Source: Acetofilamentum sp.
GTDB lineage: Bacteria > Bacteroidota > Bacteroidia > Bacteroidales > DYOH01
DNA length: 38,125 nucleotides
Assembly: GCA_020720625.1 (NCBI GenBank)
Contig: DYOH01000032.1
Coordinates: 1-38,125 of the forward strand
Reading direction: 5' to 3'
This document shows positions 7,141 through 17,061 of the stretch, one piece after another. The position numbers and the translations under genes are program-made. Position 1 is the first letter of the stretch. Each line of letters starts with the position of its first letter. The notes under the pieces were generated by a model that was given only the letters and a program-made list of their open reading frames with translations, did no database searches and was not told the origin of the DNA.

Positions 7141-8151
7141 ATGGCCACAAATAAGCAGGCAATTATAAGATATCATGCTTTAGATCAATGTTTTTCAAAC
7201 TCAGGAAGAAAATATTTCATCGATGATTTACTTGAATCCTGCAATAATGCAATTTACACCTATACTGGTACAAAAAATGGAGTGAAACGCAGACAAATTT
7301 TTGAAGACATTAAATTTATGGAAAGTGATCAAGGCTGGTCAATCCCCCTGGAAAAAATTCGCGAAGGAAAAAGAGTATATTATAAATATTCCAATACAAA
7401 GTTTAGTATTAAACAATCATCCATTAATGAATCTGAAGCCAACCAAATAAAAGAAACATTGACAATTCTAAGTAGATTTAAAGGAATGCCGCAGTTTAAT
7501 TGGATAGAAGAGCTTCTTATTCGATTGGAAACTACATTCAATTTAAAGCAACAACCAAAACCCATAATTGGATTTGAACAAAACGTTTATCTTAAAGGCT
7601 TAGAATTTTTTAATTATTTATTTAATGCCTTATTTTATAAAATAGTTTTAAATATTACTTACAAAAGCTACAGACAAAAAATATCTGTTGATATTGAACT
7701 ACATCCATATTTTTTAAAGCAATACAATAATAGGTGGTTTCTATTTGGATATAATGAAAAAGAAAATGCTATCTCTAATCTTGCGCTTGACCGAATTATT
7801 TCGATTAATGAAATAAACAAAAACTTTATAGAAAATCAAGATATTGATTTTGAAGAATACTTCGATGACATTATTGGAGTTACAGTTAAATCAAATCTTG
7901 AAAGACAAAAAATTCTTTTGCAAATTAGCAATCAACTTTGGCCATATATAGAAAGCAAGCCAATTCATGGCTCACAAAAAGTAAAACAAAAAAATGATGA
8001 ATCAATAATCATAGAATTAAACTTACAAATCAATTTCGAGTTTATCTCTCTGATTTTTTCTTACGGAAGCGAAATTAAAATAATAGCGCCGGAAAGCTTA
8101 AAAAATAAAATAATTGACAAGGCAGAAAAGTTACTTCAACAATATATTTAA
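7141..8151 (+). CDS. WYL-domain transcriptional regulator
   Basis: This 336-aa protein is probably a DNA-binding repressor or switch. Residues 1-80 look like a winged helix-turn-helix (YFIDDLLESCNNAIYTYTG ... VKRRQIFEDIKFM). A WYL domain follows, with the core RWFLFGYNEKENAISNLALDRI at about 198-219. Residues 250-336 fit the WCX C-terminal extension. WYL regulators of the CapW/BrxR kind sit at the edge of many phage-defence loci and sense a ligand, possibly nucleic acid. The retron downstream has its own promoter (8162-8189), so this gene may control it in trans. The ATG at 7141 lies 23 bp after the sensor gene. Confidence 0.85.
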   Translation: MATNKQAIIRYHALDQCFSNSGRKYFIDDLLESCNNAIYTYTGTKNGVKRRQIFEDIKFMESDQGWSIPLEKIREGKRVYYKYSNTKFSIKQSSINESEANQIKETLTILSRFKGMPQFNWIEELLIRLETTFNLKQQPKPIIGFEQNVYLKGLEFFNYLFNALFYKIVLNITYKSYRQKISVDIELHPYFLKQYNNRWFLFGYNEKENAISNLALDRIISINEINKNFIENQDIDFEEYFDDIIGVTVKSNLERQKILLQISNQLWPYIESKPIHGSQKVKQKNDESIIIELNLQINFEFISLIFSYGSEIKIIAPESLKNKIIDKAEKLLQQYI

Positions 8152-8161
8152 TTTATGCAGC

Positions 8162-8189
8162 TTGATTGCACAATAAAGATATATATTTG
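8162..8189 (+). promoter_or_regulatory. Promoter of the retron ncRNA-RT operon
   Basis: TATATTTG at 8182-8189 matches TAnnTTTG exactly. TTG at 8162-8164 lies 17 nt upstream, the same spacing as at the promoter at 203-234. The predicted start near 8194-8197 falls at the base of the a1 stem (8198), where a retron ncRNA should begin. No direct or inverted repeat for the WYL regulator was obvious here. Confidence 0.65.
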
Positions 8190-8190
8190 C

Positions 8191-8448
8191 CCAAGTTCTT
8201 TGAAATACTTGCCTAAAGATATTGAATCGTGCATGCTGGTCCTGATTTTTTCAGGACAATGATTGGCATGACTTCCCGACAATGTGCGGGATGAATGTCT
8301 CTGACAAATTGATAAAGCCGGCAATCTTGTAATATTATATTACATGTTATTGATTATTATTTATTGATTTGTTTATGATAATTTAAGTACAATTATAGTA
8401 TAGTATTGTTCATACTTATAGAGTATCACGCAAGTATTTTCAAAGTTC
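8191..8448 (+). ncRNA. Retron msr-msd non-coding RNA
   Basis: This interval between the WYL and RT genes has retron architecture. Arm a1 (CTTTGAAATACTTGC, 8198-8212) pairs with arm a2 (GCAAGTATTTTCAAAG, 8430-8445) over 15 bp with one bulged T (8440), enclosing everything between. Just after a1 comes CTAAAGATATTG; G8218 is a possible branching guanosine. The msr part holds a 7-bp hairpin GTCCTGA-TTTTT-TCAGGAC (8239-8257) extended by CATGC/GCATG (8232-8236/8266-8270). A TCCCG/CGGGA hairpin follows (8274-8278/8287-8291). The msd part is very A+T-rich and contains hairpins at 8328-8344 (TGTAATA/TATTACA), 8378-8396 and 8399-8420. The exact msr/msd boundary and template end cannot be fixed without folding or sequencing of the cDNA. 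The RT ATG lies 18 nt after a2. Confidence 0.8.
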
Positions 8449-8463
8449 ATTTTGCATAAAAAA

Positions 8464-9672
8464 ATGAAAATAGAGCAGCAACATATTGACCAAATACGAA
8501 AGCAATTTGCTTCAATGCAGAACAAAGAAGATTTGCTTGCTCTGCTGAATGAGACAAAAACGATTCTTTATGCAAAAAAGACAAAACCATTTGAACTGAA
8601 AAGTCTCACCTACTATGCCAACCCGGAATTTTCAGCAAACAGATATATAAAATTCGTAGTGAAGAAAAAATCGGGTGGTGAACGATCCATACACGCACCG
8701 GTTAAAGGCTTAAAATCAATATTACGTGCGCTTAACTTTGTGCTCCAGTGCATATATGAGCCGCATAATGCAGCTACAGGCTTTGTTATAAATAAATCCA
8801 TTGTTGACAATGCCAAAGTTCACGTTGGAAATCACTATGTTTACAACTTAGATTTAAAAGATTTTTTTCACTCATTTAATCGCAACAGAATAAAAATGAG
8901 CTTTATGCATGAGCCATTTAATTTACATAGCGAAAGAGAACCATTGGCTTTTATGCTTGCAAGTTTATGCACCCACCCATTGGAATTAAATGGTCAAATT
9001 CTACATGTACTTCCTCAAGGAAGTCCTACTTCGCCGACCATTACAAATATTTTATGCAAAAAGCTGGATAAAAGATTAACCGGACTTGCCAATCGTTTTG
9101 GGGCAAAATATACCCGATACGCTGATGATTTAAGCTTTTCATCGCCACACAATATCTATAAAAATGAAGATTTTAATAAAGAATTAGAGCGCATTATAGC
9201 AGAAGACCACATAATAAATATCCGTAATAAAAAAGTTGAAATCGGCCTGCAATTGCATATCAACAGAAAAAAAACCCGTTTACAAAAATCTGTTTACCGT
9301 CAGGAAGTAACCGGATTAATTGTAAATAATAAAGTAAATGTAAACCAGCGATATTTAAAGCAAATACGCATGTGGATTTACTATTGGGAAAAATACGGCT
9401 ACGAAAAAGCACAGCAAATTTTTATTAAAGATTATTTGGCCGATAAAGGACATTTGAAAAAAAGAAACGCTAACTTAGGGAATGTTTTAGATGGTAAACT
9501 AGAGTTCTTGAAAATGGTAAAAGGGGAAGATGACTCTACATATAAAACACTAAAAAATAGGTATGATAAAATAATTGGCGCAATAAGCCCGATTAAAATT
9601 GTATTAGATATTTGGGAAAACGAAGGCATTGAAAAAGCAATGGAAGTCTTTACCAGATTAAAAAATAGTTAA
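8464..9672 (+). CDS. Retron-type reverse transcriptase
   Basis: This 402-aa RT would copy the upstream msd into multicopy single-stranded DNA. Motifs in order are KKKSGGERSIHAP (motif 1), NAKVH (116-120, the retron NAxxH motif), YNLDLKDFFHS (motif 3), LPQGSPTSP (QGSP 185-188) and YTRYADDLSFS (catalytic YADD 219-222). Motif 6 is followed by EVTGLIVN (VTG 282-284), a motif that marks retron RTs. There is no group II intron maturase or endonuclease part, and no diversity-generating repeat pair was seen. The ATG at 8464 is preferred over an in-frame TTG at 8452 because it leaves the a2 arm clear. The stop is 2 nt before the next ATG, which indicates a tightly coupled operon with the three accessory genes. 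Confidence 0.93.
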   Translation: MKIEQQHIDQIRKQFASMQNKEDLLALLNETKTILYAKKTKPFELKSLTYYANPEFSANRYIKFVVKKKSGGERSIHAPVKGLKSILRALNFVLQCIYEPHNAATGFVINKSIVDNAKVHVGNHYVYNLDLKDFFHSFNRNRIKMSFMHEPFNLHSEREPLAFMLASLCTHPLELNGQILHVLPQGSPTSPTITNILCKKLDKRLTGLANRFGAKYTRYADDLSFSSPHNIYKNEDFNKELERIIAEDHIINIRNKKVEIGLQLHINRKKTRLQKSVYRQEVTGLIVNNKVNVNQRYLKQIRMWIYYWEKYGYEKAQQIFIKDYLADKGHLKKRNANLGNVLDGKLEFLKMVKGEDDSTYKTLKNRYDKIIGAISPIKIVLDIWENEGIEKAMEVFTRLKNS

Positions 9673-9674
9673 TC

Positions 9675-10820
9675 ATGGCAGAAAAACAACAAATTAAAAA
9701 TATACAAGAAAAAAGTAAATTTGTTACTGATATTCTTGATTATAGCATAAAGAAAAAAGTTGATGATAAAATAAGAGTTAGGTTGATTAATCTTATCAGT
9801 AAAGAAATTGAAAAAACAGGAATAGTTGAAGCGGAGATAATTGAAAGGATTTCTAGAATTGAAAAAATGTTGACGAGGGATGATAAATTCCAAAATAAAG
9901 AAAAAAGTTTTTCAGGAAAATATCATAAACCTAAAGAAACATATTTATTACTTGATTTTTTCAGCAGTAATGAAGGAGGAATAAAGAATCTTACTCATGC
10001 ATTTAATCTTGACTCTATTGAATACGAAACATTTATAAATCAATGTAAAAGCGAATTTGAGCAAGGAATAAATAAATATCCCAATGTACCCGATGCATTA
10101 ATCAAAAGAATAGAAAATTTTGCATTTTCGAAAGAACCAAGCTGGTATATAAGGAAAGGTAAAGAAAAAATTGTACCAAAACTTGGATGGTCAGAACCAA
10201 GTTTCGTCGAATGGTATAAAAGTGATAAAAAACATCCTTGGTACAATGATAAGTATAAAAATGAAATGATTATACCATTCAGGGAATCAATCAGGGTTAG
10301 ATCCGATTCTGAATACTTATATAAATTAATTAGTGAAACCTTCGAATTGGTTTTTGGCACAGCATCAATTTGCCAAATAATCTTTGATGGAAAAAATTTA
10401 AAGCATGCAGATTTCTATACTGATGTTGATAATTTGGGACAGGCAATTTTTGAAATTTTTTCGACTATAAAAGATATGGCTATAAAAAACTTCTGTAACA
10501 AAATAGAAGTAGGATTTAATACCGAAGGAGACTTTAAATTTTTTTTTATCACACATATAGACTCTTTATCGACAAAAAGGTCTGATGATAAAGGCTTTTT
10601 GGGAGGTAATTTAAGAACTATTAGAAGTAAGCTTTATGGACTTTGTAATTATGAAATTAATGCAAAATTTCCAGATGGATATTTTAGAAAAATTATCTTA
10701 TCTGATAACGATAACGATAAAGATGAAGTTTTATCAAGCCGTGGTAATTGGATGGGAAAAAGCTATCCTATTGAAGAAAATGATGTTAATGGATTCACAC
10801 ACATTTTAAAATTCTACTAA
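9675..10820 (+). CDS. Retron accessory protein with degenerate histidine-kinase-like ATPase domain
   Basis: This 381-aa soluble protein has no clear signal peptide or membrane segment. Residues about 235-345 resemble a GHKL/HATPase_c fold. NLGQAIFEIFSTIKDM (from residue 254) sits at the N-box position but lacks the catalytic asparagine pair. FFFITHIDS sits at the G1 position. GGNLRTIRSKLYGLC (GG 310-311) with the following KFPDGYFRKIILS closely matches the G2 box and final strands of histidine kinases (GGLxxVRxxLxxL...GxGTxFxIxLP). The N-terminal 230 residues are unrecognised; no H-box phospho-acceptor is evident. It is probably a non-catalytic or weakly nucleotide-binding sensor. It sits 2 nt after the RT gene and 2 nt before the next gene, and a receiver protein lies two genes on. 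The fold call is by eye. Confidence 0.55.
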   Translation: MAEKQQIKNIQEKSKFVTDILDYSIKKKVDDKIRVRLINLISKEIEKTGIVEAEIIERISRIEKMLTRDDKFQNKEKSFSGKYHKPKETYLLLDFFSSNEGGIKNLTHAFNLDSIEYETFINQCKSEFEQGINKYPNVPDALIKRIENFAFSKEPSWYIRKGKEKIVPKLGWSEPSFVEWYKSDKKHPWYNDKYKNEMIIPFRESIRVRSDSEYLYKLISETFELVFGTASICQIIFDGKNLKHADFYTDVDNLGQAIFEIFSTIKDMAIKNFCNKIEVGFNTEGDFKFFFITHIDSLSTKRSDDKGFLGGNLRTIRSKLYGLCNYEINAKFPDGYFRKIILSDNDNDKDEVLSSRGNWMGKSYPIEENDVNGFTHILKFY

Positions 10821-10822
10821 TA

Positions 10823-11455
10823 ATGATTTTAATACTTGACGATACAGAATATCTCAGAAAGAGGTTTGATATAGAGTTTCTTTTTGATGATAAATACAAA
10901 CAAGTTTGTCAATTAATTGACAAGAAGCCATATAGTAGAGAGATAATGCAATTAGCTCAGAACCTAACTAACTTTATAATGGTTTGTCATCATAGAAGTA
11001 TAAAAATTCTGAAAGAGGAAGGAAATAATTCAAGTGATGAAGATATTTCGAAAATGAAAGAGAATTTTATTCGTAAAATTGATGCAACAAAAATAGCACG
11101 AATAGAGTTTGGCAGGGATATGCATACAAACTTTTCAGCTAAAACTATTGATAAGAATCTGTTTTATGCTAATCTTAAATACTTTATCGATTTCTATATT
11201 TTAAATAATATGCTTGAATTGAAAATTTTGTATTATGGTGAAAATTATAAGGAAATAGAAAAGATGACTTTAATTGATAAAGTAATTGATGAAATTAGAA
11301 GTTTAGATATTTCAAAGTTTAAAGACAATAGATTGATTCTTGATGGTTTAAAGTCTCTTTTCCCAAGCACGAACCCATTTGATATAATTGAAAATTGGCG
11401 CAAGAAGGAATTTAGTAAAAAAGAAATTATTCACATTTTTAATGAAAACCTATAA
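10823..11455 (+). CDS. Small retron accessory protein, possible pseudo-receiver
   Basis: I do not recognise a family in this 210-aa protein. It opens with MILILDDTEYLRKRF, which looks like the first strand and acidic pair of a response-regulator receiver domain. A second strand NFIMVCHHRSIKIL has histidines where the phospho-acceptor aspartate would be. The rest is mostly helical and charged (KYFIDFYILNNMLELKILYYG; KEFSKKEIIHIFNENL). It is locked into the operon by 2-nt gaps on both sides, so it very probably works with the ATPase-like and REC-HEPN proteins. A pseudo-receiver, an adaptor or an antitoxin-like inhibitor are all possible. No catalytic motif is visible. Confidence 0.45.
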   Translation: MILILDDTEYLRKRFDIEFLFDDKYKQVCQLIDKKPYSREIMQLAQNLTNFIMVCHHRSIKILKEEGNNSSDEDISKMKENFIRKIDATKIARIEFGRDMHTNFSAKTIDKNLFYANLKYFIDFYILNNMLELKILYYGENYKEIEKMTLIDKVIDEIRSLDISKFKDNRLILDGLKSLFPSTNPFDIIENWRKKEFSKKEIIHIFNENL

Positions 11456-11457
11456 CC

Positions 11458-13200
11458 ATGAACAAAACGTATATTATTTCAGATTATACTACAAAATTAA
11501 AGGGATTGATTAGTGATTTAAGAATTCCTGAAACAAATATTATTTCTAGAGAGGATTTCACTGATGAACGAGAATGTCATGATTGGACCGCAAAAGTATT
11601 AAAGAATAATGATATAGAAAAAATAATAATTCCGATTTCTATACCAACAGATGCACCGGTGATAAATAGTGACGGGTTACTTATTGCGCTGCATATCCGG
11701 TTAAACTTTGAACTTGATATCTCAAAAAGATTAATTCCAATAATATTCTTATCAAATTTCCCCGTTTCGAAAATAATTGAAATAAACAGTTTTGACGCAG
11801 ACAATAATCCCCAAAACTTAATATTTACAAAGGGAATTTATTTTTCTTCATTTGATAAAAATGATATTAAAACAACAATAGAAGGGACAAAACATTGTAG
11901 GCAGGAAGAATATCAAAAAAGCATTTTGAATAAATTAAACATCTTTCGAAAAGAAACCATAGGGGGACATGATATTGCGAATGCATGGGGATGTTTTAAA
12001 CTAGCTCAGGTAGTTGGTGTTAGTGATAAAGTATTTGAACTTGACTCCATATCAAAACATTTAAAGCAGCTTTACGCGAAATATTTAATCTGTAACAATG
12101 AATCCTTTAAAACAGAAAAAAGAATAGACCTTAAGCCCATAAAATGTGGTAGAAAGAAAATCCTTTTTATCGATGATAAATCGGATGAAGGTTGGAGCGA
12201 TTTAATGAAAAATATTTTTAAAGGAGCAGGAGATAACTTTGTTTTTGTTGATAGTGCAAAATATAAAACTTCTGATGAGCCGAAATTATTTAAAGATTTT
12301 GAAGGATTTCTGAATGAATGCCGCTCTTATATTGGCAAAGTCTTAGATTTAATAATTATTGACCTGAGATTGAATCCGGAAAAAGAAGATATTGACAATG
12401 AAATGATTCCCCCAACCGAATTTTCTGGTTATAAATTGATAGATGAATTTTTAAATGAAAATGAAGGATATCAGATAATCGTTTCAACAGCATCGAATAA
12501 AATTTGGAATATAAATGCTGCTCTGCAAAGAGGTGCATCATCATATTATGTAAAGGAATCACCTGAATTTAATTACTCTATTAGCGAAACAAACAAGCAT
12601 TATGAGAATTTCAAAACTGATGTAAAGAAATGCTTTGAAAGAAGTTATTTGTTTGAAATATATAAGGAAAACCAAAAACTATTCTCAATACTTAATAAGC
12701 ATAGCAATCCTTCATTTGCTAATGAAATAAAAAATCAATTATCAATTGCCTATTCCCTATTAAAAGAAGCGAAGAATGATATACAATTCGCTTATGCGTA
12801 TATTTCATTATACTTGATTATTGAGATTATTAATAATGAGTATTATACAAAAACGAATGATGATAAATGGGAAATTTTGGATGTTGGTAATTTATTAAAT
12901 TGGGAGCACGATAAAAATACAAGTACTTATTCTGAAACTGGTGTTGAATTTATTGGAAATAAGCCACCTGAATGGAAAAAATTTGCCGGTTTATATTATC
13001 AGAAATGGAAAATGAATGACCATAATTTCATACGACAACTTTATTTTCTAATAACGAAACGAAATGGATTTGTGCATGGTGATAAAGCACTCTTAAATAA
13101 ACGTGATGATAGCGGAAACTATTTAAATCACGATATATACAGTAATAAAGGCTATGAAAATCTATTCAACCATATAAAACAGATAATTAGATATTTGTAA
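11458..13200 (+). CDS. Receiver-HEPN fusion, candidate retron effector RNase
   Basis: This 580-aa protein appears to have three parts. Residues 1-135 resemble a degenerate receiver (TYIISDY; GLLIALHIRL; IPIIFLSNFP; NLIFTKGIYF) without a usable phospho-acceptor. Residues about 234-370 form a complete receiver: KKILFIDD (D239, D240), LIIIDLRL (D302), VSTAS (T344) and YYVKES (K366). The T-to-K spacing of 22 is normal; the D-to-T spacing of 42 is longer than usual. Residues about 400-580 are helical and contain ITKRNGFVHGD. Its R535-N536-x3-H540 matches the catalytic Rx4-6H motif of HEPN RNases, with the favoured polar residue after R. I infer a ribonuclease toxin gated by phosphorylation or by partner binding at the receiver. 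The gene is 2 nt downstream of the previous one. The ATG opens the first strand directly. Confidence 0.65.
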   Translation: MNKTYIISDYTTKLKGLISDLRIPETNIISREDFTDERECHDWTAKVLKNNDIEKIIIPISIPTDAPVINSDGLLIALHIRLNFELDISKRLIPIIFLSNFPVSKIIEINSFDADNNPQNLIFTKGIYFSSFDKNDIKTTIEGTKHCRQEEYQKSILNKLNIFRKETIGGHDIANAWGCFKLAQVVGVSDKVFELDSISKHLKQLYAKYLICNNESFKTEKRIDLKPIKCGRKKILFIDDKSDEGWSDLMKNIFKGAGDNFVFVDSAKYKTSDEPKLFKDFEGFLNECRSYIGKVLDLIIIDLRLNPEKEDIDNEMIPPTEFSGYKLIDEFLNENEGYQIIVSTASNKIWNINAALQRGASSYYVKESPEFNYSISETNKHYENFKTDVKKCFERSYLFEIYKENQKLFSILNKHSNPSFANEIKNQLSIAYSLLKEAKNDIQFAYAYISLYLIIEIINNEYYTKTNDDKWEILDVGNLLNWEHDKNTSTYSETGVEFIGNKPPEWKKFAGLYYQKWKMNDHNFIRQLYFLITKRNGFVHGDKALLNKRDDSGNYLNHDIYSNKGYENLFNHIKQIIRYL

Positions 13201-13251: not shown

Positions 13252-15447
13252 ATGAGCATATTTGACCATTTTAAGCATATCACTCTAAGCAACGACCAAT
13301 CCAATGCTCTGGAAATGATACAAAATTTCCTTTCGGGCGATTTACAGGTTTTTATTCTTAAAGGATATGCCGGAAGTGGAAAAACTACCTTGCTTAAAGG
13401 AATAGTAGACTATTTAAAAGCCACAGAAATAAACTATCAATTAATGGCTCCTACCGGAAGAGCAGCAAAAGTTATTAGTCAAAAAACGGGATTTGAGGCA
13501 ACAACAATTCATAAAGGAATATATAGTTTTGATGAATTAAAAGAGTCTGAAATTTACGAAAATGAAGAGTCCGAAGTAAGCTTTAAGTATTTTTATTCTA
13601 TTCGCAAAAATTCTTTTATAAATAACCCAATTCTTATTATTGATGAAGCTTCGATGGTTTCAGACATTGAAAGCCAGGCTGAATTTTTTGGTTTTGGTAG
13701 TGGCTTCTTGTTAAAAGATTTACTAGAATATGCAAAAATAAATTTGCCCGATTCAAACTCAAAATTGCTTTTTATCGGAGATCCTGCGCAGCTGCCTCCT
13801 ATTGGGATGAACTTTTCTCCTGCGTTAGATTCAAAATATTTAACTGAAAAGTACAATTTAAAAACTATAGAAACAGAAATTAGAGAAGTAAAACGACAAA
13901 CTACTGATAGTGGAATACTAAAATCCGCTACAAAAATTCGTCAAAGTTTAAGTGCCGGATTTTTTAATCACTTTAACCTATCGGATTACAGCCAAGACAT
14001 TAATAATATAAACTTTGAGCAATTTCTTGATAGTTATATTTCGAAAAATGAGCAAAAAATTGTTATCACATATAAAAACGAAACAGCCAATGACTTAAAC
14101 CAATTAATCAGAAAAAGGAAATATGGTGCAGTTGTGATTGTTCAAAAAGGCGATATAATGCTCATAAACGCAAATAATTACCAACTAGGCGTATTTAATG
14201 GAGAATTTGGTGTTATTTCAAATGTGGATGAAAATACTGTCCAAAGGGAAGTAAGGTATTACAAAAAAAACAAAGACTTAGTCAAAATAGAGCTTATTTG
14301 GCGAAATGTTGAGCTTTTCATCCCTGATGAAAACGGAAACACAAAAACTATCAAAGCCTATATGCTTGAAAACTTGCTGAATGAAAGTGAAAATAAATTA
14401 TACGACCTTCATTTAGCACTTTTCATTGATTTTAAAAATCGCTTTCCAAGAAAAAACAGTCATGAATATAAAAATGAACTAAAAAAAGACCCATTTTTAA
14501 ATTGCTTGTCTTTAAAATATGGTTACGCTGTTACCTGCCACAAAGCCCAAGGTGGTGAATGGGATACCAGTTATATTTTTTGGGATAAAGGAACCGACAC
14601 AAACTTTGATTTCTATCATTCGGCTCATAGTAATGCAAGAAAAACAAATGCTGAATTTTATCGTTGGGCTTACACGGCAATTACCAGAGCAACAAATAAA
14701 ATATATTGCATTAACCCACCCAAGTTTACTTCCTTTTCAACGATTTCTTTTATTGATATTGAGCTACAAGATTCTATAAAGCAAATTTCTGGTAAGGATT
14801 TAAGTATTAAAGAAATAACGCTAGATGAACAAAATCTGCAACTCCTAAAAACGTATGGTTTAGAAAATATGCCAATTGTTCTGCAAAATCATTTCTTACA
14901 AATGTATTTTATTACTAAAGACAACGGCATAGAAACTATCAAATGGGAAAAAATAAATCATGAAATAAGATATTATTTTAAGAAGGATAATGAAAAAGTA
15001 GCACTTAAATTTTGGATAAATGCAAATTTGCAATTCAACGCGAATTTTCAACAAATAGCAAAAGAGACAAATTCACTTTCATTATTTAATCACATTACCG
15101 GATTGAACAAAGAAGCTCATACGTTGATTATTAAAAGAAATGACCACAAAATAGACATCCCAGAAATAGAACTTGATGAAAAAATGAATGAAAATGCACC
15201 TTATTTAGGCTCATTATTTGACTCAATGAAATTGCAGTTAGTAAATACAGGAATTAGTGTATTTACCATTGAGCATTTCAATTTCAAAGAACGATATACA
15301 TTTATTAGAGATAATGAAAAGGCTGTAATAGATTTTACATATAATAATGCAGGATTTTTTGGATACACTACTCCGGTAGGAAAGTTATGCAATAGTCAGA
15401 ACCTTCTAAGTGATATAAAACAATTTATTTCTAAACTAAAAGAATAA
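13252..15447 (+). CDS. RecD-like SF1 DNA helicase (UvrD/RecD C-terminal type)
   Basis: This 731-aa protein is an ATP-dependent helicase of the RecD/Pif1 group. Visible motifs are the Q-like LSNDQSNALEMIQ, Walker A GYAGSGKTT (38-46), motif Ia APTGRAAKV, Walker B IIDEAS (DEAS 131-134) and motif III GDPAQLPPIG (176-185). Motif V follows as VTCHKAQGGEWD (427-438) and motif VI as YTAITRAT (474-481). About 230 residues after the helicase core are unrecognised and may bind partners. The gene starts 51 nt after REC-HEPN and is separated by only 3 nt from the TPR/cold-shock gene, so those two are a pair. An internal promoter before it is possible (ACAATTTTG near 13224-13238) but not convincing. Confidence 0.85.
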   Translation: MSIFDHFKHITLSNDQSNALEMIQNFLSGDLQVFILKGYAGSGKTTLLKGIVDYLKATEINYQLMAPTGRAAKVISQKTGFEATTIHKGIYSFDELKESEIYENEESEVSFKYFYSIRKNSFINNPILIIDEASMVSDIESQAEFFGFGSGFLLKDLLEYAKINLPDSNSKLLFIGDPAQLPPIGMNFSPALDSKYLTEKYNLKTIETEIREVKRQTTDSGILKSATKIRQSLSAGFFNHFNLSDYSQDINNINFEQFLDSYISKNEQKIVITYKNETANDLNQLIRKRKYGAVVIVQKGDIMLINANNYQLGVFNGEFGVISNVDENTVQREVRYYKKNKDLVKIELIWRNVELFIPDENGNTKTIKAYMLENLLNESENKLYDLHLALFIDFKNRFPRKNSHEYKNELKKDPFLNCLSLKYGYAVTCHKAQGGEWDTSYIFWDKGTDTNFDFYHSAHSNARKTNAEFYRWAYTAITRATNKIYCINPPKFTSFSTISFIDIELQDSIKQISGKDLSIKEITLDEQNLQLLKTYGLENMPIVLQNHFLQMYFITKDNGIETIKWEKINHEIRYYFKKDNEKVALKFWINANLQFNANFQQIAKETNSLSLFNHITGLNKEAHTLIIKRNDHKIDIPEIELDEKMNENAPYLGSLFDSMKLQLVNTGISVFTIEHFNFKERYTFIRDNEKAVIDFTYNNAGFFGYTTPVGKLCNSQNLLSDIKQFISKLKE

Positions 15448-15450
15448 AAG

Positions 15451-17061
15451 ATGTCGTTTAAAGAAGTACAGAGGTTAAGAAAATCAGGCAAACTTGAAGA
15501 TGCCCTAGCAATAGCAAATGAAGATTTGGAAAAAGACCAATTAAATATCTGGAACAAGAGGTCTATTGCTTGGGTATATTATGAGTTTCTTAAATTACAT
15601 AGTAATATTGAAAATATAGATAAGTCTATTGATTTTCTGACGAAATTAAAAGCTTTAGAGCTTCCTGAAGATGAAAGCATGATTTTTGATTCTTTCGCTT
15701 TTCAAATAGGTAAACTCATTTTCAATCTTGGACATGAAAAACATATTGATTTTATAAAACTCAATTCAATTTTTGAAACGATTAAAAATTTTCATTTTTC
15801 AAAACCGTCCGAAGGATATTCTTTTTTGCATAAAGCATTTCATAAAGGTCATAAGGGTTGGTCAAGATACTTAGAATTTGCCGATTGGTGGAACTTTGAT
15901 AACTTCCGAACAGAAGATTACTTGCCTGAAATTTATAACGATCAAAAATTAATGTCTCTTGTAGAACAAGGGTACATAGCCTATTCGAAGAAACTATTCG
16001 AAGGTACCATCGTACAATCAAATGAAACTTATCATAATCACCAACAGAAAGAAGTTAAGATTCATAGAGAAGAATTACCTCTGGCTGCATCCAGTGAGTG
16101 CGAAATTAGCCTTGCAAAAACTATAGACAAAGAAAAAGTTCAATCATTCTTACCAAAATTAGACCTAATTATAGAAAAACATCCGGAATACCAATATCCG
16201 CAATATTACAAAGCAAAATTGCTTTTAGCACTTGGTGGGAATGACGATATATTAGCAAATTTCATCCCTTTTGCCTTAAAAAATCGAAACAAATTTTGGG
16301 TTTGGGAAGTTTTGGCAGATATTTACCCAAATAAAAATGAAAATAAGCTGTCATGTTTATGCAAAGCGCTAAGCTTAAAAAACCCCGATGAGTTCACCAT
16401 CAAAACCCGTCAAAAACTCGCGGAATTACTCATCAGCTTAAACAAATTTAAGGAGGCTAAAACCGAAATACAGAAAATAATAAGCATTCGAAAAGAAAAT
16501 AATTGGGGAATACCTGAAAAAATAAATGAATGGACAAAGCAAAAATGGTATTTAAAAATTCAATCAAATAAAGACAATAAAGCGTTTTACTCTCTGCATT
16601 TAAGAAATGCAGAAGATATTCTTTATACTTATATCCCTGAAGAAACTGTTGCGATTGAATTCGTCAACGAAGACAAAGCAATGCTATCTTTTATACAGAG
16701 TAGAACTAAACATGGCTTTTTTAAATATGCAGGCTTAATTGATAATCCTAAAATCGGAGATTTATTAAAAGTACGATTCGCCAACAACAATAATAAAGAT
16801 GATTATTATAAAATTCTATCAGCAAAACTAGCATCAAAGGATGATTCTTGCGAAGCAATAAAAGAATTTAATGGCATATTAAAAATAAAAAGCACCGCTA
16901 GTTTCGGTTTCGTTGAAGATATTTTTATCCATCCAACGCTAATCGTTAAACATGAGTTAGATGCAAATACCTTAATCAGCGGTAAAGCTATTCTTTCTTA
17001 TAATAAAAAACAAAATCAATGGGGCTGGAAAGCTTTTGAAATATTGTCTGATTCTAATTAA
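15451..17061 (+). CDS. TPR protein with C-terminal cold-shock-like OB folds
   Basis: The N-terminus of this 536-aa protein (residues 1-50, LRKSGKLEDALAIANEDLEKD) is a TPR-like helical pair. More helical repeats run to about residue 360. Near residues 385-440 there is an OB-fold-like stretch (AIEFVNEDKAMLSFIQS). Residues about 474-536 read like a cold-shock domain: NGILKIKSTASFGFVEDIFIHP places F-G-F-V and D-I-F-I-H as in RNP1 and RNP2. It probably binds single-stranded RNA or DNA for the helicase encoded 3 nt upstream. TPR/CSD proteins next to RecD-like helicases fit the pattern of defence islands, but I cannot name a characterised system. It is the last gene of the island. Confidence 0.65.
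   Translation: MSFKEVQRLRKSGKLEDALAIANEDLEKDQLNIWNKRSIAWVYYEFLKLHSNIENIDKSIDFLTKLKALELPEDESMIFDSFAFQIGKLIFNLGHEKHIDFIKLNSIFETIKNFHFSKPSEGYSFLHKAFHKGHKGWSRYLEFADWWNFDNFRTEDYLPEIYNDQKLMSLVEQGYIAYSKKLFEGTIVQSNETYHNHQQKEVKIHREELPLAASSECEISLAKTIDKEKVQSFLPKLDLIIEKHPEYQYPQYYKAKLLLALGGNDDILANFIPFALKNRNKFWVWEVLADIYPNKNENKLSCLCKALSLKNPDEFTIKTRQKLAELLISLNKFKEAKTEIQKIISIRKENNWGIPEKINEWTKQKWYLKIQSNKDNKAFYSLHLRNAEDILYTYIPEETVAIEFVNEDKAMLSFIQSRTKHGFFKYAGLIDNPKIGDLLKVRFANNNNKDDYYKILSAKLASKDDSCEAIKEFNGILKIKSTASFGFVEDIFIHPTLIVKHELDANTLISGKAILSYNKKQNQWGWKAFEILSDSN

Follow-up and report, generated by a model that had tools for sequence, protein, structure and literature searches.

The window (the whole 38,125-nt stretch of DNA that was analysed) carries on its forward strand a non-coding region at 8191-8448, followed at 8464-9672 by the gene for a retron reverse TRANSCRIPTASE (RT) of 402 aa. 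The RT, a predicted HisKin-conflict histidine kinase (9675-10820), a small receiver-like protein of 210 aa (10823-11455) and a response regulator (11458-13200) are encoded in succession with 2-nt gaps between them. Genes for a RecD-like/PIF1 helicase with a TBP-TOTE domain (13252-15447) and for a protein in which TPR and DUF7017 regions precede two S1/CSD-TOTE domains (15451-17061) come next on the same strand. Upstream of the non-coding region, again on the forward strand, lies the gene for a WYL-domain (WYL+WCX) regulator (7141-8151; Pfam WYL 7.5e-11, WCX 2.6e-9).

The RT matches Pfam RVT_1 (3e-15), and its nearest relative with a solved structure is that of retron Ec67 (1.7e-35). NAxxH and VTG are retron-specific RT motifs; both are present in the window RT (NAKVH at residues 116-120 and VTG at 282-284) together with YADD (219-222), and the three are conserved in nearly all relatives, as expected of a retron RT. 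The closest PADLOC models were those of type XI (RT-protease; 4.5e-97) and type XII (RT-TIR; 2.3e-91), which were matched over their RT part only. In types XI and XII, one protein combines the RT with a protease or TIR domain, whereas the window RT ends after the RT part: the type XI profile is matched only as far as position 327 of 506 and the protease domain is absent, and the match to type XII stops at position 330 of 475, misses the NCBIfam cut-off and leaves no fused TIR domain. Unlike types XI and XII, the relatives of the window RT are accompanied by a kinase or by a protein with an R..H motif. Retron Ec67/Eco2 (RT-Toprim, type I-C) also differs from the window in that its Toprim effector is fused and it has no kinase or receiver.

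RT relatives were collected by whole-genome searches (relatives, class, phylum and order) and from GTDB contigs and plasmids. A pattern search of viral contigs found no relative, and phage records contained only distant RTs, mostly on unannotated fecal contigs. The region upstream of the RT could be aligned for 15 loci, the window among them, across which RT identity falls to about 45%. In L023 (10179-12644), L041 (8521-10068) and L064, a long insertion of about 100 aa separates the early RT motifs from YADD. The more distant RTs of L056, L059, L060 and L065 have C-terminal extensions without a Pfam match, and these are possibly further effector types.

The kinase is identified by Pfam PF22561 (9.5e-53) and has an invariant H108, which lies in its LTH box. 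Gene order identical to that of the window was found in the Chryseobacterium plasmids NZ_CP033935 and NZ_CP094531 at 45% RT identity, and the operon order is wholly or partly kept in L018, L019, L033, L035, L023, L054 and L062. In loci with the kinase, the 210-aa protein occupies the same position after it. This protein starts with DD or ED, has an invariant D7 and H57, and carries a His at the position of a receiver's phospho-accepting Asp; neither Pfam nor a PDB profile search gave a match for it. The response regulator begins with an inactive receiver (Pfam iREC, 9.8e-13), which is followed by an intact receiver with matches to CheY/Spo0F profiles. The residues D239, D240, D302 and K366 of the intact receiver are invariant and, with the invariant H108 of the kinase, make up the signature of a two-component pair.

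The C-terminal domain of the regulator contains R535-x4-H540. This RX4-6H motif was found in all 14 homologues examined, and residues 372-580 gave a mostly helical AF2 model (pLDDT 77.5), as expected of a HEPN RNase. When the model was used in a blind fold search of the PDB, HEPN toxins ranked first and made up seven of the nine best matches. The best of these was weak (prob 0.75, E 0.36, TM-score (target) about 0.5), and Pfam detected no HEPN domain in the window regulator and in one homologue merely a match at 0.007. The assignment of this domain as HEPN-like is thus weakly supported by the model, and its RNase activity is inferred.

In eleven other RT loci, the cassette is replaced by one gene of about 250-300 aa directly after the RT. 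The invariant residues of its product include R213 and H218 in an RN-x3-4-H motif. Because AF2 modelling followed by a Foldseek search against the PDB matched nothing, its reading as a HEPN protein rests on the motif alone; a PDB profile search also found nothing. On an RT tree of 23 tips, the distribution of the kinase and single-gene states needs at least six changes, and we therefore infer that effectors have been swapped on a conserved ncRNA-RT chassis. In L034, a second gene (10605-11642) follows the single-gene effector and encodes a PD-(D/E)xK nuclease-like protein of 345 aa.

The helicase and the TPR protein correspond to PADLOC PDC-M16A and PDC-M16B, respectively. Together they contain the TPR, OB (S1/CSD) and TBP elements of the TOTE (TPR, OB, TBP, Effector) conflict systems, with PF22721, PF22707 and PF22708 above their cut-offs, and are the same pair as in PADLOC PDC-M16. 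The pair in the window clade differs from TOTE systems (review cited in PMC12458937) in being optional and in lying downstream of a retron RT. We regard it as accessory, because it was found in 12 RT loci and also occurs without a nearby RT. The latter arrangement was seen in L090 and L091, where the helicase-TBP and TPR-S1/CSD genes had no RT within the fetched stretch. In L061, a protein of 1724 aa, not the TOTE pair, follows the kinase-receiver cassette.

Absence of a nearby RT from some TOTE loci, and the presence of another gene in the cassette's place in relatives, would also fit a retron that consists of the ncRNA and RT only, with the kinase-receiver-HEPN cassette as an independent defence system next to it. 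Such an arrangement has a precedent in Retron-Sda1, where a retron RT likewise stands beside a kinase cassette and not beside a usual effector, and where the neighbouring HipA/DUF3037 genes are reported to defend without RT or ncRNA (PMC12548924). That kinase is a HipA Ser/Thr-type toxin kinase in a self-sufficient cassette, and it is not known to be fused to the RT (PMC12548924). In contrast, four loci of the window clade (L023, L054, L062 and L038), scattered across the RT tree, carry the kinase as a fusion with the RT, and in the window the RT and cassette form one operon with 2-nt gene gaps. The best evidence came from a search for HisKin-conflict domains in 198 genomes of the same order: all five matches (L061, the window, L023, L062 and L018) lay beside or inside a retron RT and none occurred without one, which favours the kinase being part of the retron. 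The same search of 14 control genomes gave no match. The tie is one of adjacency or fusion to the RT, from which a role as effector is inferred. An independent cassette therefore seems unlikely to us, although it is the rival that survives best.

The non-coding region has the structure of a retron ncRNA. The first-pass annotation had proposed, from the window alone, that a 15-bp pairing of 8198-8212 with 8430-8445 brackets an msr-msd locus whose a2 arm ends 18 nt before the RT start codon, with inner hairpins at 8239-8257 and 8274-8291. The sequence agrees with each of these points: the a1 arm (CTTTGAAATACTTGC) forms 15 bp with the a2 arm (GCAAGTATTTTCAAAG) with one bulged A, the ATG is at 8464, both hairpins are present, and the type of RT and the order a1-msr-msd-a2-RT hold. 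When folded alone, 8191-8448 reached -67.3 kcal/mol (z -4.6) and was more stable than every one of 200 dinucleotide shuffles; in this fold the whole element is closed by a1/a2. The arms by themselves were only moderately unlikely, as a helix of at least 15 bp was obtained in 31 of 3000 dinucleotide shuffles when G-U pairs were allowed. In a single sequence of such A+T-rich composition, arm helices this long are no great rarity, and the case must therefore rest on comparison.

In the predicted folds of all 15 loci, a1/a2 close the element. Within the 8-bp core of the arm helix, five of the eight pairs have changed on both sides, and 97.5% of the cells are paired across the 15 loci; the double changes include U-A/C-G/A-U, A-U/G-C and C-G/U-A. 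The core columns were aligned manually with an invariant CnUG as the anchor, and this anchoring favours that helix; the double changes within it were not produced by the anchoring. When 20 pairs in three helices were scored over the 15 loci, the covariation score was 0.60 as compared with 0.27 +/- 0.03 in shuffles, none of 500 of which reached it. Sliding the partners by one to three columns reduced the paired cells from 92.7% to 33.7-53.0%. RNAalifold independently recovered the a1/a2 and msr helices. Lack of compensatory changes in a1/a2 had been named beforehand as the result that would refute the retron reading, and the strong covariation means that it was not refuted.

The msr core (8215-8298) matched a covariance model at 78 bits and contains invariant columns. 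In stem-loop 1 (8232-8270), the hairpin at 8239-8257 is enclosed by an outer stem (8232-8236/8266-8270) that had been overlooked; four of its five pairs have changed on both sides and 97.3% of the cells are paired. Stem-loop 2 (8274-8291) also covaries, with six of seven pairs changed on both sides. Its fraction of paired cells, 83.8%, is lowered by a misalignment of one column. The covariance model, R1, was trained on loci of the clade, and RNAalifold retained only stem-loop 1 in it, because five of the sequences had stem-loop 2 displaced by one column. A search of 344 genomes with R1 gave five matches, all just upstream of this RT. Since all five are training loci, they show specificity and not new discovery. 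On two loci that were not used in training (L061 and L038), R1 gave weak matches at the right place.

Downstream of the msr, the predicted msd template (8299-8410) is variable, folds into a long predicted hairpin and has 21% G+C. It is A+T-rich, as had been noted, but not unusually so, because the msd of relatives (79-150 nt) ranges from 11 to 41% G+C. The 3′ end of the template (8411-8429) carries a conserved CATACnnAnAGArTA element with invariant AGA and TA columns. This element lies directly 5′ of a2, where cDNA synthesis is expected to begin, and would mark the 5′ end of the cDNA. With inverted a1/a2 arms around an msr and an msd, upstream of the RT, the region meets the definition of a retron ncRNA. 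We consider it nearly certain from sequence comparison that 8191-8448 specifies a retron msr-msd RNA.

The site of branching was less clear. G8218, which had been suggested as the branching G, is a G in only 11 of the 15 loci and is replaced by C or A in L018, L019, L035 and L055, so that it was rejected as unconserved. In contrast, G8224 is the same in all 15 loci, as is the whole TTGA (ending at 8225) in which it lies. Because of this invariance, G8224 is the best candidate and a likelier branch G than G8218; branching itself is inferred from the sequence. An AGC context surrounds the priming G in characterised retrons, and one characterised retron is also without an apparent priming G (PMC6868368). 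This exception makes the AGC context a common and not a strict feature. The clade of the window lacks this context: in the window, the stretch from a1 to stem-loop 1 contains no AGC, and the invariant G stands in TTGA instead.

The missing AGC motif would also fit a DRT-type system, in which cDNA synthesis, protein-primed or otherwise, uses the RNA as template or scaffold and no 2′-5′ branched msDNA is made. DRT2, DRT9 and DRT10 are RT-ncRNA defence systems that are reported to work in this way. However, NAxxH and VTG occur in nearly all relatives, the best matches of the RT are to retron RTs, and the RNA is closed by a1/a2 arms and has a conserved element next to a2, and we judge a DRT-type mechanism improbable. 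A cis-acting leader of the RT operon (an attenuator or riboswitch) that is no RT template would agree with a stable fold placed between the promoter and the first gene, but it is very unlikely, as an Rfam search of the ncRNA region found no match, the five R1 matches in 344 genomes were all upstream of a retron RT, and the a1-msr-msd-a2-RT order with a variable msd inside invariant arms fits retrons.

For the promoter of the retron RNA, a box ending at 8189 had been claimed, and a Bacteroidota-type -7 box, TATATTTG (TAnnTTTG), was indeed found at 8182-8189. Its TTTG stands at an equal distance upstream of a1 in most loci. A palindrome, TGCA-N7-TGCA (8156-8170), overlaps the -33 region and is a candidate operator. 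It was found with equal spacing in 14 of 15 loci, compared with 0.07 expected, and with one mismatch in the 15th; in most loci its start is 30 nt upstream of the TTTG of the -7 box. A WYL homologue is encoded near the RT, on either strand, in most close loci. The WYL protein probably regulates the retron promoter, with its binding to the palindrome being inferred.

A known system with an output like the one proposed here is Retron-Kva2 (type IX), in which the RT-msDNA complex silences a HEPN RNase and binding of a phage protein to the msDNA ends this silencing (PMC13405049). Both would combine RT and ncRNA with a HEPN RNase output. The HEPN protein of Kva2 is without the canonical motif and is paired with a winged-helix protein (PMC13405049), whereas the HEPN-like domain of the window has RX4-6H and sits in a response regulator under a kinase. 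No winged-helix family was matched among the proteins of the window operon, and the Kva2 RT is distant from the window RT (3.8e-12). By analogy with Retron-Kva2, the window retron most likely silences its kinase.

Our preferred reading is that the window contains a retron outside the modelled types XI and XII, in which a kinase-receiver relay, itself inferred, gates a HEPN RNase; we hold this to be somewhat better supported than an even call. Transcription would start shortly before a1, and its promoter is probably controlled by the neighbouring WYL protein. The a1 and a2 arms would pair and the RT would bind both msr stem-loops, prime from a 2′-OH (best candidate, G8224) and copy the A+T-rich msd; this synthesis of msDNA is an inference. 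From what is known of other retrons, the msDNA would stay bound to the RT. The putative effector is the cascade encoded in the same operon, i.e. the kinase, the receiver-like protein and the regulator with its HEPN-like RNase domain. In an uninfected cell, the RT-msDNA complex would silence the kinase and hence the HEPN output. Disturbance of the msDNA by a phage protein, a trigger that is likewise inferred, may cause phosphate to pass from kinase to receiver, and the phosphorylated receiver may then free the HEPN domain, leading to RNA cutting and growth arrest; phosphotransfer and RNA cleavage are both presumed. The TOTE helicase and TPR-S1/CSD proteins would be accessory. More broadly, the loci may represent a retron lineage, mainly of Bacteroidota, in which the msDNA acts as sensor for a phosphorelay that runs from kinase through receiver to HEPN RNase, and in which one HEPN-like effector with direct coupling has repeatedly taken the place of this relay. 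We regard this wider proposal as evenly poised.

Retrons have been divided into 13 types (PMC12548924). Our literature search found no paper that joins a retron with a histidine kinase or receiver; the comparison with the 13-type classification and with described TOTE systems rests on the PADLOC models and on general background. With kinase-RT fusions, exchange of the effector on one conserved ncRNA scaffold and a small covarying ncRNA, both the relay and the branch site lend themselves to direct tests. In known retrons, the RT-msDNA complex is believed to hold the effector itself. To our knowledge, no retron that signals by phosphotransfer is known, and that of the window would be the first, and one with an unusual priming-G context. 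HisKin-conflict, iREC and TOTE domains have so far been known mainly from sequence, and a relay, if true, would explain their co-occurrence. Such a relay, placed between complex and effector, would also imply that signals can be amplified or integrated by retrons. As a new ncRNA-RT pair from Bacteroidota, the retron may in addition be of use in genome editing of that phylum.
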